Part shown: positions 9,077 through 49,319 of the stretch, piece after piece
How the letters are laid out: every line of letters starts with the position of its first letter
How positions within the stretch are numbered: position 1 is the stretch's first letter
Origin: Corallococcus macrosporus
Lineage (GTDB): Bacteria; Myxococcota; Myxococcia; Myxococcales; Myxococcaceae
Assembly (NCBI RefSeq): GCF_017302985.1
Contig: NZ_JAFIMU010000007.1
Coordinates: forward strand, 496,001-560,000
Reading direction: 5' to 3'
DNA: 64,000 nucleotides
The notes under the pieces: generated by a model
What the model saw: the letters and a program-made list of their open reading frames with translations, nothing else
Told to the model about the DNA's origin: nothing
Database searches by the model: none
Position numbers and translations under genes: made by a program

Positions 9077-9254
9077 CCGCTTCCGGCCCCGGGCCCGCCC
9101 CTTCTTCAAACACAGACATCCCCCCCCGCCGCGCCACCCCACCCTCCGCGTCCGGGAGGACAGGCGGGGGCGGCTGACGCCCACCCGCCCTCCCCTCCCG
9201 AGCGTGACAGGCGATCCACACGTTGCGGTGCTTCCAGAAGAATTCCCTGGAAGG

Positions 9255-9260
9255 TAGGTT
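9255..9260 (+). promoter_or_regulatory. -10-like box of the Pro-rich protein operon
   Basis: TAGGTT lies 7 nt before the ATG at 9268. No Shine-Dalgarno sequence is seen between them, which fits a leaderless transcript. Confidence 0.35.
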
Positions 9261-9267
9261 TTACTGC

Positions 9268-12200
9268 ATGTCCGTGTTGGAGGTCGTGGCGTGGCAGCGC
9301 GTGGTGGGACTGGCCTTGTGGCTGGCGCTCGGCGGCTCCGCGTGGGCGGCCGGACCATGGCGGGCGGTCGCGCGAGTGACGTCCGCGGAGGACCGCGCAT
9401 TGCTGGAGCGGGTGCGAGGGCAGAGCAGTGACCTGCCGGTGGTGCTGGAGGTGGAGACAGGTCCGTCCATGGACTCGAGCCGCGATGGCGCGTGGCGTGA
9501 GGCGGAGCGGTTGGCTTCACGGAAGGACGCTCGCGCGGTGTTGTGGTTCACGCGCGCTGGAGCGGAGCTGCGGGTGTCGGTGGCGGCTCCGCGCACGGGA
9601 CACCTGTTCGTGCGAAGTGCGCGGGTGGAGGGAGCACCGGAGACGCTGACCTGGTCCGTGGGAGCGGAGGCCCTGGCATTGGCGGCACGTTCTGCGCTGC
9701 GAGCAGTGGATGCGGGCGAACCGCTAGGAGAAGTCGTCGCGCCTCAGCCTCCCGCGCCAGCGCCAATGGCCAAGGTACCGCCCCTGCCCCCTACGTCGGA
9801 GCCGGTGGCCAAGGCACCGCTTTCGCATTCCACGTCACCCGTGGTCGCCAAAGCTCCGCCTCCATCTCCCGTGCCTGATACGGAGGCCAAGACACCGACT
9901 CCGCCCACCGCGCAGACTCCGGTGACCAGGACACCGCCTTCGCGCTCCAAGCAGGAGCCGGTGACGAAGACACCGCCTCCGCCCACTGCGCCGAATCCGT
10001 TGGCCAAGACACCGCCTTCGCTCTCCCCGCAGGCTCCGGCAAGCAAGGCACCGCCGCCGGCCTCCGCGTCGGCTCCAGTCGCAAAGACACCGCCTCCACT
10101 TCTCACACAGGATCCGGTGACCAAGGCATCTCCGCTGCCTTCCGCGCCGGATCCATTGGCCAAGACGCCGCCTCTTCCTCCTGCGTTGGATCCAGTGGCT
10201 AAAGCACCGCCTCTGCATCCTGCGGCAGCTCCGCTCGCCAGGGGATCGCCGTCTTCTGCGGCGAACCCGGAGGCCAGGACACCCCTTCCGCCTCCCGCAT
10301 CACCTCCGCTCGCCAAGGGCTCGCCGTCTTCTGCGGCGAGCCCGGAGAACAAGCCCCCCCTTCCGCCTCCCGCATCAGCGTCGGTGGCCGAGGCGCTACG
10401 TCCACCTTCCGCGTCGCCGTCGGTGGCCAAGGCACCGCTTCAGCCTCCTGTGTCGGATCCGGTCGCCAAGACACCGCTTCCGCTTCCCGCACGGGATCCA
10501 GCGCCCAAGGCGCCGCCTCCACTTCCCCCGTCCGATCCAGTCGCAAAGGCACTGCCTCCCGCGCCAGCTCCGACGACCAAGGCGCCGCCGCCACTTCCTT
10601 CATTCGTTCCAGTCGCAAAGGCACCGTTTCCCCTCCCCGCGCAGGCTCCGGCGACCAAGGCACCGCCGCCACTTCCCCCATCCGAGCCAGACGTAAAGGC
10701 ACAGCCTCCGCCTCTCGCGCCAAATCCGGTCGCCCAGGCACCGCGTCCGGATCATGCGCCGGCCCCATTGGCCAAGGCACCGCCTCCGCCTCACGCGTTG
10801 GCTCCGGTCGCCGAGGCTCCGCCTCCGTCTGCCGCGCAGACTCCGGTCGCCAAGGCACCGCTTCCGTCTCACGCGTCAGCTCCGGTCGCCAAGGCTCCGC
10901 CTCCGTCTGCCGCGTCAGCTCCGGTCGCCGAGGCTCCGCCTCCGTCTGCCGCGCAGACTCCGGTCGCCAAGGCACCGCTTCCGTCTCACGCTTCAGCTCG
11001 GGTCGCCGAGGCTTCACCTCCGCATTCCACGCCGCCTCTGGACACCAAGGCGCAGCCTCCCGCGTCTACTCGGGTCGTCGAGGCACCACCTCCACCTTCC
11101 ACGCCGCCTCTGGCCACCAAGGCGCAGCCTCCCGCGTCTGCTCGGATCGTCGAGGCTCCACCTCCGCCTTCCACATCACCCGTGCTCGCCAAGGCTCCGC
11201 CTTCGCACCCCGAGTCGGCTCGGATCGCCGAGGCGCCACCTCCGCCTTCCACATCACCCGTGCTCGCCAAGGCTCCGCCTTCGCACCCCGAGTCGGCTCG
11301 GATCGCCGAGGCGCCACCTCCGCCTTCCACATCGCCGCTGGTCGCCAAGGCTCCGCCTTCGCACCCCGAGTCGGCTCGGGTCATCGAAGATCCACCTCCG
11401 CCTTCCACATCGCCGCTGGTCGCCAAGGCTCCGCCTTCGCACAGCGAGTCGGCTCGGGTCATCGAAGCTCCACCTCCGCCTTACACTTCACCTCTGGTCG
11501 CCAAAGCTCAGCCTCCGGCGTCGGCTCAGGTCGCCGAGGCTCCACCTCCGCGCTCCACCTCGCCTCTGGTCGCCAAGGCACCGCGTCCGCCTCACGCGCC
11601 GACTCCGGTCGCCGAGGCTCCACCTCCGCCTTCCACATCACCCGTGCTCGCCAAGGCACCGCCTTCCCATCCCGAGTCGGCCCGGGTTGCCGAGGATCCA
11701 TCAGGGGGGCCGACGGATCCGGGGGTGGCCGGGGCTCCACCGCCGCATCCCGCGCTGGCTCCGGTGGACGGGGCACCGCGGGCAGTGCCGACGAATCCGA
11801 TGGACGGGGCCTTCGTGCAGGTGGGTCTGCATGCGGCGCTCGACGGCTATCACCCCGCCGGACAGCAGGGCCTGTCCGTGGGCGCGGGATGGGCGGGCCG
11901 GGTGCTGCGGCTTCGCGTGCAGTTGCTGGCGGCGCTGCCGGTGCACCTGCGGGACGCATACACGGACCTTCGCCTGGCGCAGGGTTCGGCGCTGGCGTGG
12001 GTGGACGTGCCCTTCGTGAAGGCCGGGGCCTGGGAGGGCACGGTGGGCCTGGGCGCGGGCGCCGCGGGCTTCTGGCGGCGCACGGAGGCTCGGGCCGCGG
12101 AGGTGGAACCGACGCCGTCGCGGCTGCTCGCGGCCTTCGTCATGGGGCCCGCGATGCGGGTGGCGTGGCGGGTGGGGCCGGCGCTCGCGCTGGAGGCGTC

Positions 12201-12327
12201 GCTGTCGGGCGAGGTGCTCCTGGGACGGCCCCGGCTGGGCTACTCGGTGGATGGTGTCTTCGTGCTCCGGGAGGACGGCGCGTCCGTGCGTCCCCGACTG
12301 GGAGTGGGGATGGTGATTTTTCCGTGA
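9268..12327 (+). CDS. Secreted protein with ~690-residue Pro-rich linker and barrel-like C-terminus
   Basis: A 1019-residue protein. A signal peptide (1-27, cleavage after SAWA) is followed by a compact domain (28 to about 155). Residues 159-845 are almost entirely Pro/Ala/Lys/Ser repeats of the type VAKAPPP, including five 26-residue repeats encoded by 78-bp tandem DNA repeats. The final domain (846-1019) has alternating hydrophobic strands (FVQVGLHAALDGY, LSVGAGWAGR) and ends in Phe-Pro, as in outer-membrane beta-barrels. I infer an outer-membrane anchor joined to a periplasmic head by a very long flexible arm. Its stop overlaps the sigma factor start, so it is the first gene of a signalling operon. 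No database family is recognised. The start at 9268 was chosen for the signal peptide. Confidence 0.85.
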   Translation: MSVLEVVAWQRVVGLALWLALGGSAWAAGPWRAVARVTSAEDRALLERVRGQSSDLPVVLEVETGPSMDSSRDGAWREAERLASRKDARAVLWFTRAGAELRVSVAAPRTGHLFVRSARVEGAPETLTWSVGAEALALAARSALRAVDAGEPLGEVVAPQPPAPAPMAKVPPLPPTSEPVAKAPLSHSTSPVVAKAPPPSPVPDTEAKTPTPPTAQTPVTRTPPSRSKQEPVTKTPPPPTAPNPLAKTPPSLSPQAPASKAPPPASASAPVAKTPPPLLTQDPVTKASPLPSAPDPLAKTPPLPPALDPVAKAPPLHPAAAPLARGSPSSAANPEARTPLPPPASPPLAKGSPSSAASPENKPPLPPPASASVAEALRPPSASPSVAKAPLQPPVSDPVAKTPLPLPARDPAPKAPPPLPPSDPVAKALPPAPAPTTKAPPPLPSFVPVAKAPFPLPAQAPATKAPPPLPPSEPDVKAQPPPLAPNPVAQAPRPDHAPAPLAKAPPPPHALAPVAEAPPPSAAQTPVAKAPLPSHASAPVAKAPPPSAASAPVAEAPPPSAAQTPVAKAPLPSHASARVAEASPPHSTPPLDTKAQPPASTRVVEAPPPPSTPPLATKAQPPASARIVEAPPPPSTSPVLAKAPPSHPESARIAEAPPPPSTSPVLAKAPPSHPESARIAEAPPPPSTSPLVAKAPPSHPESARVIEDPPPPSTSPLVAKAPPSHSESARVIEAPPPPYTSPLVAKAQPPASAQVAEAPPPRSTSPLVAKAPRPPHAPTPVAEAPPPPSTSPVLAKAPPSHPESARVAEDPSGGPTDPGVAGAPPPHPALAPVDGAPRAVPTNPMDGAFVQVGLHAALDGYHPAGQQGLSVGAGWAGRVLRLRVQLLAALPVHLRDAYTDLRLAQGSALAWVDVPFVKAGAWEGTVGLGAGAAGFWRRTEARAAEVEPTPSRLLAAFVMGPAMRVAWRVGPALALEASLSGEVLLGRPRLGYSVDGVFVLREDGASVRPRLGVGMVIFP
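11141..11530 (+). repeat. 78-bp tandem repeats inside the Pro-rich gene
   Basis: Five successive units begin at 11141, 11219, 11297, 11375 and 11453. Each encodes 26 residues (A-R-I/V-A/I-E-A/D-PPPP-STSP...AKAPPSHPES). The 78-bp spacing is exact, the second and third copies are nearly identical, and the reading frame is kept. Confidence 0.9.
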
Positions 12328-12962
12328 GCACCGATGACCCGATTTCACGCCGTCCCTCCTCCTTGCCGGACATGAGGAGCTCGGGCTCACATGCGACCGT
12401 CGCGCCCCGTGGCGAGGACGCCCGGCTGACGGCGGCCATGCGAGGGCAGCGCGATGCGACCGAGTCCCTGCTCCTGGAGCTGCTGCCCCGCGTCCGCAAC
12501 CTGGTGCGCTACCTGGTGCGCGGGGACTCGGACGTGGAGGACATCGCCCAGGAGTCGCTCATCGCGCTGGTGCGGGGCCTGCCCACCTATCGCGGTGACG
12601 GGCGGTTCCACGGCTGGGTAGACCGGGTGGTGGTGCGCACGACGTTCGCGTGGATCAAGCGTTCACGCGGGCGCGAGGCCCGTTACAGTGAGGATCCGGT
12701 GGAGTTGTTGGCGGTGCCGTCCGACGAAGCGCCGGCGGACGAGTACCTGCATCGCCGTCACCTCGTGACGTTGCTGGACAAGCTGTCGACGGAGCAGCGG
12801 CACGCGCTGGTGCTGCACCACGTCCTGGAATTGAGCGTGCAGGAGATCTCCACAGAGCTGGGCGTCCCCTTCGAAACCGTGCGCAGCCGGCTGCGCCTGG
12901 GACGCACCGCCCTGCGAGCGCTGGCCTCGGACGGTGAGCTGCCCGAGGGGGAGTCCTCATGA
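12324..12962 (+). CDS. ECF-like RNA polymerase sigma factor
   Basis: A 212-residue sigma-70 family protein. Region 2 spans about 45-120 (EDIAQESLIALVRGLPTYRG, then FHGWVDRVVVRT) and region 4 about 150-205 (STEQRHALVLHHVLELSVQEIS followed by FETVRSRLRLGR). The GTG start at 12324 overlaps the stop of the upstream gene (GTGA); an ATG at 12372 is the alternative and still leaves both regions complete. Its own stop overlaps the next ATG. It probably controls this operon and envelope genes, with the downstream membrane protein as regulator; that is inference from gene order. Confidence 0.9.
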   Translation: MSTDDPISRRPSSLPDMRSSGSHATVAPRGEDARLTAAMRGQRDATESLLLELLPRVRNLVRYLVRGDSDVEDIAQESLIALVRGLPTYRGDGRFHGWVDRVVVRTTFAWIKRSRGREARYSEDPVELLAVPSDEAPADEYLHRRHLVTLLDKLSTEQRHALVLHHVLELSVQEISTELGVPFETVRSRLRLGRTALRALASDGELPEGESS

Positions 12963-13762
12963 ACTCCCGCCCCCCCGACGACGGTGAAGCGGAGCCGGTG
13001 GACGACCTGCTGCGGCCCCTGGATGACGGCAGCGGACCGGCGCGGAGGCTGTCGAGGCAACGCTCGAGCGCGCTCGTCCAGGCGGCGCTGGACGCGGCGC
13101 TCCAACAGGCGACGGACCATCCGAGAAGGCGCAAGCGGCCTCCCACGTGGCTGATGGCAGGCGCGGCGCTCGTCTTCACCGGAGCCGCGGCCGCCGCGGC
13201 ATGGCGCTACACGCGTCCCGAGCAGCCCCACCCGGTGGTACTGACACCCGCCGTGCCGGAGCCAATGCAGGTGGCCACGCTGGAGCCGGTACCCCTTCCC
13301 CCCAAGCCCGCGCCCTCCGAACCCTTCACCATCGAGCATCCCCGCCCCCTGCGTCCGAGCATCGCGGTGAAGGAGTCCTCGAAGCCGGAGGACCTGCTGC
13401 GGCAAGCCAACGCGTTCCGTTCAGAGGGGAAATGGAAGGAAGCGGAAGAGCTGTACCTGCGCGTCATCCGAGTGGAGCCGTCATCGCTGGCCGCGTACGT
13501 CGCGAGAGTGGCGTCGGGCTCGCTGCGACTGGAGCACCTGGGGGACGCACGCGGCGCCCTGCGCCAGTTCCAGGACGCGGTGCGACTGCAACCCGGAGCC
13601 ATGCTGGATCCGGAGGCCCGCCACGGCGTGGCAGAAGCCTACCGAGCCCTGGGTGACACGGAGGCGGAGGCCCGAGCGCTGGGAGAGTTCCTCACGCTGC
13701 ATCCGGACTCGCCACTGGGCGCGGCGTCCCGTGCGCGGCTCCGGGAGTTGTCACCGCCATGA
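12959..13762 (+). CDS. Membrane TPR protein, probable anti-sigma partner
   Basis: A 267-residue protein. A short cytoplasmic N-terminus (1-60, helical, Arg-rich near the end) is followed by one membrane span (64-82), a Pro-rich linker (85-130), and a periplasmic region with about three TPR-like helical pairs (145-265). It overlaps the sigma gene by 4 nt (ATGA). A short cytoplasmic region, a single span and a periplasmic sensor is the layout of membrane anti-sigma factors, but no zinc-finger or FecR domain is visible. Regulator of the upstream sigma is an inference; TPR repeats might contact the Pro-rich outer-membrane protein. Confidence 0.82.
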   Translation: MNSRPPDDGEAEPVDDLLRPLDDGSGPARRLSRQRSSALVQAALDAALQQATDHPRRRKRPPTWLMAGAALVFTGAAAAAAWRYTRPEQPHPVVLTPAVPEPMQVATLEPVPLPPKPAPSEPFTIEHPRPLRPSIAVKESSKPEDLLRQANAFRSEGKWKEAEELYLRVIRVEPSSLAAYVARVASGSLRLEHLGDARGALRQFQDAVRLQPGAMLDPEARHGVAEAYRALGDTEAEARALGEFLTLHPDSPLGAASRARLRELSPP

Positions 13763-13874: not shown

Positions 13875-13899
13875 AACCTGTCCGACAGTCGGACAGGTT
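13875..13899. repeat. 25-nt palindrome, copy 1
   Basis: Perfect 12-bp arms AACCTGTCCGAC and GTCGGACAGGTT around a central A. The same element recurs at 16847, 16924 and 49222, always outside genes. Confidence 0.9.
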
Positions 13900-14118: not shown

Positions 14119-15306
14119 ATGAGACTCCGCATCACGCGATTCATTCCATGGGCAGCGATGTTGGGCACCGCGTGCACGGTGAACGACCCGGTGGCCACGC
14201 TGCACTCGCCTGACGGGGGGAGCGACATCCCGGATGCATGGGCCGAGCACTGCGCGGACAGCGGACCGCCACTCCTGCTGGGAGATCCGGCATCAGTGCC
14301 TCTGCTGTGCAGCGGCCAACTGGCGGAGACGTTGTTCCGCCGCGCGGCATGCTCCTGTGAAGGCCTGTCCCTCAGCGCCCCTTTCTCCGTGGATGCATTC
14401 CGAAGCTCCGTGGGCCCGTACGCACCCGGGGGCACGGGCGGCGACGTGGGAGTGAATGGCAGTCTGTCCGCGAACGACCGCGTCACGGTGGGCGGCTCGC
14501 TCCAGGTGGGAGGAGTCCAGCTCAGCCGCCCGCTCACGGTGGGCGGAAGCCTGCACAGCAACGGTCCCCTCTCCGGTCCGGGCACGTCCGCCACCGTGGC
14601 CGGCGACGCGAGGGTGAATGGAGGCGTAGCGCTCGCCGCCCTCACCGTGGGTGGCGTGCTCACGGTTCCTCCGGAGTTCTCCCCCGGGCCAGCCCGGGCG
14701 TCGGAGCTGCGCCGAGAGCCCGTGCCCCCGGTCACGCCCTGCGACTGCGCCAACGGCTCCCGCTTCGACCCGGCCGCGCTCATCGCCCACCACTCCGTGG
14801 ACAATGACAACGCGGCCATCGATCTGGACCCGGCGACGCTGGAAGGCGTCACCGGCGAGCGCGTGCTGGAACTGCCCTGCGGCCGCTTCCTGCTGACCCG
14901 CATCGCGGGGCCCGGCCACGCCACGCTGCGCATCCGGGGCCGCACCGCGCTGTTCATCCCCGGCGGTGTGGACTTGGTCGAAGCGCTCACCGTGGACGTG
15001 CAGCCTCCGGGTGAGCTGGATCTCTTCCTCGCGGGCGGCTTCATCGTGTCCGGCCAGCTCACGCTGGGCTCAGCCGCCCTACCCTCGCGGGTGCGCGTCT
15101 ACGTCGCGGGCACGCAGCCCTTGGACATCTCCGCGGGCAGCACGCTCGCCGGAAACCTCTACGCGCCACAGGCCCAGCTCAACCTGAGCGGCAACGCGGA
15201 GGTCTTCGGCTCCCTGTTCGTGCGCCACCTGGAGGCGTCCGGAGCGATACAGGTGCACCACGACGCGGACGTGCTCAACGCGGGCGCCGCGTGCCCCGCG
15301 GGTTGA
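14119..15306 (+). CDS. Lipoprotein with bactofilin-like repeats
   Basis: A 395-residue exported protein. The start at 14119 has GAGGTG 8 nt upstream and gives a signal peptide ending at LGTAC (C19), a tolerable lipobox. Residues 110-200 contain short repeats (VNGSLSANDRVTVGGSLQVGG, TVGGSLHSNGPLSG, VAGDARVNG) of the kind seen in polymer-forming bactofilin-like beta-helices. The C-terminal third (GTQPLDISAGSTLAGNLYAPQ and on to FGSLFVRHL) resembles the domain found at the end of pilin-like or collagen-binding-like surface proteins. Four or more cysteines occur in the N-terminal half (CSCEG, CDC). I infer a surface or periplasmic structural protein. It may be co-regulated with the sigma operon 350 nt upstream. 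Confidence 0.78.
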   Translation: MRLRITRFIPWAAMLGTACTVNDPVATLHSPDGGSDIPDAWAEHCADSGPPLLLGDPASVPLLCSGQLAETLFRRAACSCEGLSLSAPFSVDAFRSSVGPYAPGGTGGDVGVNGSLSANDRVTVGGSLQVGGVQLSRPLTVGGSLHSNGPLSGPGTSATVAGDARVNGGVALAALTVGGVLTVPPEFSPGPARASELRREPVPPVTPCDCANGSRFDPAALIAHHSVDNDNAAIDLDPATLEGVTGERVLELPCGRFLLTRIAGPGHATLRIRGRTALFIPGGVDLVEALTVDVQPPGELDLFLAGGFIVSGQLTLGSAALPSRVRVYVAGTQPLDISAGSTLAGNLYAPQAQLNLSGNAEVFGSLFVRHLEASGAIQVHHDADVLNAGAACPAG

Positions 15307-16846: not shown

Positions 16847-16871
16847 AACCTGTCCGACTGTCGGACAGGTT
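16847..16871. repeat. 25-nt palindrome, copy 2
   Basis: Arms AACCTGTCCGAC and GTCGGACAGGTT, central T. The right flank (TTGCGCAAAGCGCTTCCGGC) is closely matched after copy 3. Confidence 0.9.
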
Positions 16872-16923: not shown

Positions 16924-16948
16924 AACCTGTCTGACAGTCGGACAGGTT
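16924..16948. repeat. 25-nt palindrome, copy 3
   Basis: Arms AACCTGTCTGAC and GTCGGACAGGTT, central A, with one C-to-T change giving a G-T pair. The right flank TTGCGTGAAGCGCTCCCGGC resembles that of copy 2. Confidence 0.88.
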
Positions 16949-48942: not shown

Positions 48943-49319
48943 GCTCGCTCCTGGCGGCCTGACCGCCGCCTTCTTCCGGTTGCTGCCTTTTATTCCCCAC
49001 CGCTGACGTCAGGGCGGGGGCCGCATGCTGCGCGGTTCAACGGCACGGATCCACTCCCCGTCCGGTCAGAGCCCCTGCCTGTCCTCCTGGACAGGCCCCC
49101 TCCTGCCCGCCCGAACAGCAGGCGGCCCACCTGACCGGTCGGGTCCTGCCGGACAGACGTGAAGGACGCGCGTTCTTGAGCGGAAATCCGCCGCGGCCTG
49201 GCCCCGGGCCCGGTCCGTCCAAACCTGTCCGACTGTCGGACAGGTTCGCGCGGTGCGCCGCCGGCGGGGGGCCGGACTCAAGTCCTTGGGATCCAGAAGA
49301 AGCGGCGCACCACCCGACT
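48943..49319. other. 377-nt gap with palindrome
   Basis: Between the GMC gene and the nfi stop. It holds palindrome copy 4 (49222-49246) and CCTGCC/GGACAG-like partial repeats near 49080-49160. No gene, RNA or clear terminator is seen. Confidence 0.6.
49222..49246. repeat. 25-nt palindrome, copy 4
   Basis: Perfect arms AACCTGTCCGAC and GTCGGACAGGTT around a central T, 32 kb from copy 3. Confidence 0.9.

Follow-up and report, generated by a model that had tools for sequence, protein, structure and literature searches.

A four-gene module that may couple an outer-membrane barrel protein to an ECF sigma factor in myxobacteria

A 64-kb stretch of the Corallococcus macrosporus genome (the window; all coordinates are window positions) carries four neighbouring genes encoding a secreted protein with a barrel-like C-terminal domain (A), an extracytoplasmic function (ECF) sigma factor, a membrane protein with tetratricopeptide repeats (TPRs; T) and a lipoprotein (D). 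We consider it rather probable, by analogy with the FecA-FecI-FecR and VreA-VreI-VreR systems, that these genes form a trans-envelope signalling unit in which a small OmpA-type barrel would replace the TonB-dependent transducer. In the roles that we propose, A, probably together with D, would be the receptor, T the regulator and the sigma factor the output. An initial annotation of this DNA had described a three-gene unit and missed lipoprotein D (14119-15306); the full unit is the four-gene set A-sigma-T-D, which, as judged from genome comparison, is conserved in soil myxobacteria.

RESULTS

Organization and conservation of the module

Genes A (9268-12327), sigma (12324-12962) and T (12959-13762) are consecutive on the forward strand. 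The open reading frames and both 4-nucleotide (nt) overlaps, GTGA at 12324-12327 and ATGA at 12959-12962, are as the initial annotation had read them. The features of the module are as follows.

9227..9260, forward strand: promoter-like element GGTGCTTCC-N19-TAGGTT, with 7 nt between the end of its second box and the ATG; the spacing is conserved in relatives
9268..9348, forward strand: gene A, putative signal peptide (residues 1-27), a hydrophobic stretch ending AWA↓A, aligned with homologue ATG starts
9349..9732, forward strand: gene A, predicted periplasmic alpha/beta domain (Ndom, about residues 28-155), from a profile search and an AlphaFold model of a homologue
9733..11802, forward strand: gene A, Pro/Ala-rich arm with 13-residue repeats (residues 156-845), from composition and homologue arm lengths
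11803..12324 (stop codon to 12327), forward strand: gene A, predicted 8-strand outer-membrane beta-barrel (residues 846-1019), from alignment and AlphaFold/Foldseek of a homologue
12324..12962, forward strand: ECF sigma factor, 212 amino acids (aa); PF08281 3e-13, PF04542 3e-10, TIGR02937 6e-21
12959..13762, forward strand: T, membrane TPR protein, 267 aa, with cytoplasmic N-terminus, transmembrane (TM) segment at about 63-81, periplasmic linker and TPR domain 143-264; from TPR matches, alignment, AlphaFold and Foldseek
14119..15306, forward strand: D, lipoprotein, 395 aa, lipobox LGTA↓CTVNDPVA, C-terminal DUF7305 / ice-binding-adhesin-like domain; from adjacency, family searches and PF23981

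The A barrel domain and T were searched for in 96 genomes of the family, and the triplet was read in 43 genomes where it is intact, together with that of the window, giving 44 loci (G and L numbers below denote genomes and loci). All 44 keep Ndom, linker, barrel, sigma and T side by side in one unchanged order, bearing out the linkage for which the initial annotation had proposed to look in other myxobacteria; the triplet is present in Myxococcus xanthus (L131). The A-sigma overlap measures 4 nt in 34 of the 44 loci (start unresolved in the remainder) and the sigma-T overlap in 40. A barrel, Ndom, sigma and T co-occur genome by genome, and in G067 Ndom, sigma, T and D have all been lost together. 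A Myxococcus-type cluster was also present in a public record labelled Comamonas sp. KCTC 72670 (L137), which looks mislabelled.

Wherever enough sequence is available (G029 ends at a contig border), lipoprotein D is the immediate neighbour of the triplet. At least 23 loci show a 4-nt overlap between T and D, making A-sigma-T-D a single run of overlapping genes there; the T-D gap of the window is 356 nt, and in five loci (L095, L101-L104) D is divergent, just upstream of A. The lipobox Cys is invariant (20/20 sequences), and PF23981 was found in 20/20 D proteins. Within the family, matches to D at E<1e-130 occur only in genomes with the triplet or fragments of it, and T-D adjacency recurs in other families (L171, L285, L297). 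D is probably an outer-membrane partner of A.

Gene A encodes a predicted OmpA-type barrel with a tethered N-terminal domain

The gene A protein (1019 aa) consists of a signal peptide, the ~128-residue Ndom, the 690-residue arm and a 174-residue C-terminal domain, and has no Pfam or NCBIfam match. A short-armed orthologue from C. interemptor (354 aa) was modelled with AlphaFold from 13 sequences, with a mean predicted local distance difference test score (pLDDT) of 77 and a predicted TM score (pTM) of 0.46. In this model Ndom has the order b-a-b-a-b-b-b-a (a, helix; b, strand), with pLDDT mostly 74-92, and the C-terminal part forms eight long strands and a short hairpin. The barrel matches OmpA, NspA, OmpW, Ail and OprF at a Foldseek probability of 1.0, with moderate TM scores (0.46-0.55 by target length). 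Residues 846-1019 are accordingly listed as a predicted OmpA-type 8-strand barrel. The initial annotation had seen a secreted, barrel-like protein with a 690-residue arm and had suggested structure prediction of residues 28-155 and 846-1019; the description holds up, and in the homologue the two regions are predicted as an alpha/beta domain and an OmpA-type barrel. The barrel fold agrees with that of the OmpA family, but it sits C-terminally, and no OmpA peptidoglycan-binding domain was found with Pfam.

Since both termini of known 8-strand barrels lie on the periplasmic side, Ndom would be periplasmic. A profile search of the family genomes found Ndom in one copy per genome, confined to such A-sigma-T loci. 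Its mean column identity is 61%, whereas the arm is not conserved. The Ndom profile gave no credible match to solved structures; TolB came only at rank 18 of the Foldseek search, with a long and poor alignment, and a TolB-like fold of Ndom is kept as a lead only. Draft Corallococcus assemblies (L121-L123, L125-L127) often break inside the barrel, at domain residues 80-135, which suggests that this stretch is hard to sequence.

The arm (residues 156-845) contains 32% Pro and 20% Ala, with 53 Lys and Arg and 38 Asp and Glu residues. Its periodicity is strong at 13 and 26 residues, corresponding to DNA units of 39 and 78 bp, and its DNA is stop-free only in the coding frame. Among the 44 loci, 42 have arms of 14-95 residues, G016 has 167 and this strain 690, with a median of 36.5 for all 44; by this comparison the 690-residue arm is an expansion of the 13-residue repeat peculiar to this strain. 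At ~0.3 nm per residue it would extend to >200 nm, by our own estimate far in excess of any periplasm. The initial annotation had pictured a sensor reaching across the periplasm, and one may ask whether so long an arm, in frame, stop-free and TonB-like in composition, provides a functional reach that sensing needs. We find this very improbable: the arms of all but two of the 44 orthologues are of 14-95 residues, and the T linker gives no clear compensation for A arm length (rho 0.28, p 0.07). Orthologues make do with 14-167 residues, which excludes arm length from the mechanism; of the earlier proposal the signalling role is kept, with support from the FecR-domain relatives described below, while the arm as a periplasm-crossing device is dropped.

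T is a candidate sigma regulator

Pfam and NCBIfam profiles identify the second gene as an ECF sigma factor and match T only at its TPRs, apart from a weak match to the YbgF model; hydropathy places a single TM segment near residue 63. The sigma factor and membrane TPR protein named by the initial annotation are thus both recovered. The cytoplasmic segment before the TM helix carries a conserved motif, LLxPLDxxxGPARR(I/L)SRxRSxALVxAAL, with a helix predicted at low confidence at residues 33-49. The TPR domain (143-264) was modelled confidently (AlphaFold, 17 sequences), and its nearest natural bacterial envelope proteins are YbgF/CpoB and BamD (YbgF/CpoB 2xev, Foldseek TMt 0.91). The source genome has 48 sigma region-4 matches; compared by eye, the other sigma neighbours are mostly CxxC-type anti-sigmas, and none holds a second copy of the GPARR motif.

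The fold of T raises the possibility that it is a periplasm-facing envelope scaffold of the CpoB/YbgF or BamD kind, sigma being controlled otherwise, for example by its own transcription. The structural neighbours, the weak YbgF match and the lack of a known anti-sigma domain in the Pfam search would all agree with this. A scaffold would not, however, account for the conserved cytoplasmic motif ahead of the single TM helix, for the relatives with a FecR domain in the same gene position, or for a sigma-T overlap kept in nearly every locus, and we hold it to be improbable. YbgF/CpoB of Tol-Pal shares the periplasmic TPR fold, but it is soluble and tol-pal-encoded, whereas T is membrane-anchored, sigma-linked and outside any tol-pal cluster. 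As a one-TM inner-membrane protein encoded beside a sigma factor, T fits FecA-FecI-FecR type signalling, in which it would act as the regulator.

Some distant loci pair A-like proteins with FecR-domain proteins

Searches with Ndom led to the distant members L171-L174 and searches with the barrel to L175, each of which lies beside an ECF sigma gene. In an HHalign comparison the A proteins match over most of their length (probability 98.3, 320 columns). The third gene of L172 and L173 encodes a membrane protein with FecR, PEGA and TPR domains, and by eye L174 and L178 resemble this layout; the gene order of L172 is sigma, T, A. A FecR domain is present in the T-position proteins of L172, L173, L269, L277, L278 and L279. 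As some distant A loci pair sigma with FecR-TPR proteins, T would most likely be a sigma regulator of the FecR-TPR type in reduced form.

In G165, a distant member of the phylum with 14 FecR matches, seven FecR loci were read (L173, L269-L272, L278, L279), and all seven have a sigma gene and a secreted barrel-ending gene nearby. The secreted proteins have a small N-terminal domain and a C-terminal half that is barrel-like by strand-pattern counts, not models, often with a Pro-rich linker in addition. Within the Myxococcaceae, L178 and L277 represent a second, weakly related triplet, in which the gene for a protein with a small domain, a Pro-rich linker and a barrel is followed by that for an ECF sigma factor and then by that for a FecR-domain membrane protein.

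A conserved promoter element is shared with an unlinked barrel gene

Upstream of gene A lies the element GGnGCTTCC - ~19 nt - TAGnnT - 7 nt - ATG, with fixed spacing across Corallococcus and Myxococcus/Pyxidicoccus; genus g7 retains the second box and the spacing. Because the element keeps its distance to the ATG in related genomes, the start at 9268 is supported, and because the second box ends 7 nt before it, transcription of A is probably leaderless. A promoter matrix run over the window scored highest at 9267 (38.7 bits, the site itself being in the training set; runner-up 9.2), and the strict pattern occurs once in the source genome, at gene A. In 14 complete or near-complete genomes a relaxed pattern gave 1-5 sites each, compared with 0-2 for a reversed control; a pattern with different spacing puts the background at ~1 match per genome.

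The recurrent relaxed-pattern sites precede gene A and an unlinked solo-barrel gene. This paralogue of A (L097, L105-L113, L115), found in many Myxococcus/Pyxidicoccus genomes, encodes a signal peptide and a barrel with no Ndom, and nearly all copies share the gene A promoter layout. One further pair of sites (G059, G062) precedes a conserved membrane protein. Most of the remaining sites were set aside as not conserved or as lying before unrelated or very short frames. The solo barrel is either a second target of the same sigma factor or a gene that has retained the promoter since duplication.

A promoter motif common to gene A and the solo barrel also suits a different explanation, namely that sigma makes A and D under stress as proteins of the envelope or surface, A being a product as OprF is of SigX, while T alone senses or scaffolds. 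The OprF-type barrel match and the SigX-OprF precedent in Pseudomonas (PMC8999054; PMC3832394) lend it some weight. Ndom, however, is absent from the solo barrel and always present in the sigma-linked copy, and it is conserved where the arm is not; moreover, the translationally coupled A-sigma-T order resembles that of receptor-sigma-regulator operons. We regard this explanation as unlikely.

A palindrome between T and D

A perfect palindrome, CTGTCCGACAGTCGGACAG, lies between T and D (13878..13896, no strand assigned) and is repeated elsewhere in the window. In perfect or near-perfect form, CTGTCCGACNNTCGGACAG is found at 13878-13896, 16850-16868, 16927-16945 and 49225-49243, four sites per 64 kb for 0.01 matches expected, and it is a dispersed intergenic repeat that is probably not part of the sigma system.

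DISCUSSION

In the mechanism that we propose, the 8-strand barrel would anchor A in the outer membrane, a flexible Pro-rich tether would let Ndom hang down into the periplasm, and D would be the probable outer-membrane partner of A. T would cross the inner membrane once, hold the ECF sigma factor through its conserved cytoplasmic segment and dock Ndom through its periplasmic TPR domain. A surface or envelope change would alter the A-T contact, upon which T would free (or activate) sigma, and sigma would transcribe its own operon and, in Myxococcus, the unlinked barrel copy. The 690-residue arm of this strain would be an over-grown tether and not a required part. The analysis shows which genes are present and how they are linked, their topology and predicted folds, the conservation of the promoter and the relatives with a FecR-domain third gene; the binding of sigma by T, the contacts between A and T and those of D, the signal, the direction of control and the ownership of the promoter by sigma are our inferences. 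A signalling role also suits the relatives whose third gene carries a FecR domain.

Several observations weigh against this proposal. T has no FecR domain (PF04773, Pfam) and no Cys in residues 1-62, hence no HxxxCxxC motif of the zinc anti-sigma type (ZAS/zf-HC2). As no family match extends beyond the TPRs, an anti-sigma role for T draws on position, topology and relatives, and the alignment of T with the FecR-TPR proteins is limited to the TPR domain (HHalign probability 98.6, 123 columns). Weaker homologues of D occur elsewhere without the module. No intact triplet had its first gene missing or unlinked, the arrangement that the initial annotation had considered fatal to its idea, yet orphan sigma homologues (L280 in G039 and L281 in G042, E about 1e-80) have no A, T or D, so the sigma family is not always tied to A. 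Finally, G067 retains the solo barrel and its promoter after losing sigma; sigma is therefore not the sole possible user of this promoter, which may not belong to it. Judged by eye, the genes next to the orphan sigmas are of chitinase and hexosaminidase type, which may hint at a polysaccharide-related function of the sigma family.

Among known systems the module most closely resembles VreA-VreI-VreR (PUMA3) of Pseudomonas aeruginosa, a cell-surface signalling system with no TonB-dependent barrel receptor (PMC2729926). The gene order (secreted receptor-like protein, ECF sigma factor, inner-membrane regulator) and the logic are alike. VreA, however, resides mainly in the periplasm; it lacks a barrel and combines an STN-type signalling domain with a C-terminus like that of TolA/TonB (PMC2729926), whereas A ends in a predicted 8-strand outer-membrane barrel and has no STN or TonB match in Pfam; the module also adds lipoprotein D, and by sequence Ndom matches no known family. 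The initial impression that no described system has this layout is thus contradicted for order and logic and holds for the outer component. FecA-FecI-FecR (PMC9249621) likewise combines an outer-membrane protein bearing an N-terminal periplasmic domain with a one-TM regulator and an ECF sigma factor, and distant relatives of the module have a FecR domain in the third gene; the module itself has no TonB-dependent barrel, plug or STN domain, and T of the window has TPRs in place of a FecR domain. We do not file the module as a member of the FecA-FecI-FecR/Vre family, but it probably works like one. In SigX-OprF-CfrX-CmpX of Pseudomonas (PMC8999054) an ECF sigma factor is again tied to an OmpA-type barrel, but there is no arm-borne N-terminal domain, gene order and partners differ, and CfrX is a small soluble putative anti-sigma (PMC8999054). 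We found no description of the four-gene module in the open-access literature, subscription papers being outside the search.

The distant loci further suggest, tentatively and at somewhat less than even chance, that a class of cell-surface signalling independent of TonB is widespread in Myxococcota. In it, a small outer-membrane barrel bearing a periplasmic signalling domain on a Pro-rich tether would act with an outer-membrane lipoprotein to control an ECF sigma factor by way of a one-TM regulator of the TPR (or FecR-TPR) kind; one genome may hold several versions.

It is the conserved set of four genes, with the wider family around it, and not the arm that makes the system interesting. Myxobacterial genomes encode about 50 ECF-type sigma factors each, and to our knowledge the input is known for few of them. 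With an outer-membrane component of its own, a conserved unit of this kind offers a definite, testable route from the surface to a sigma factor, present in the genetic model M. xanthus, and since the promoter is nearly unique, the regulon should be small and easily testable. If our proposal is correct, cell-surface signalling would be possible without a TonB-dependent receptor, and OmpA-type barrels would be able to act as the outer end of sigma pathways.

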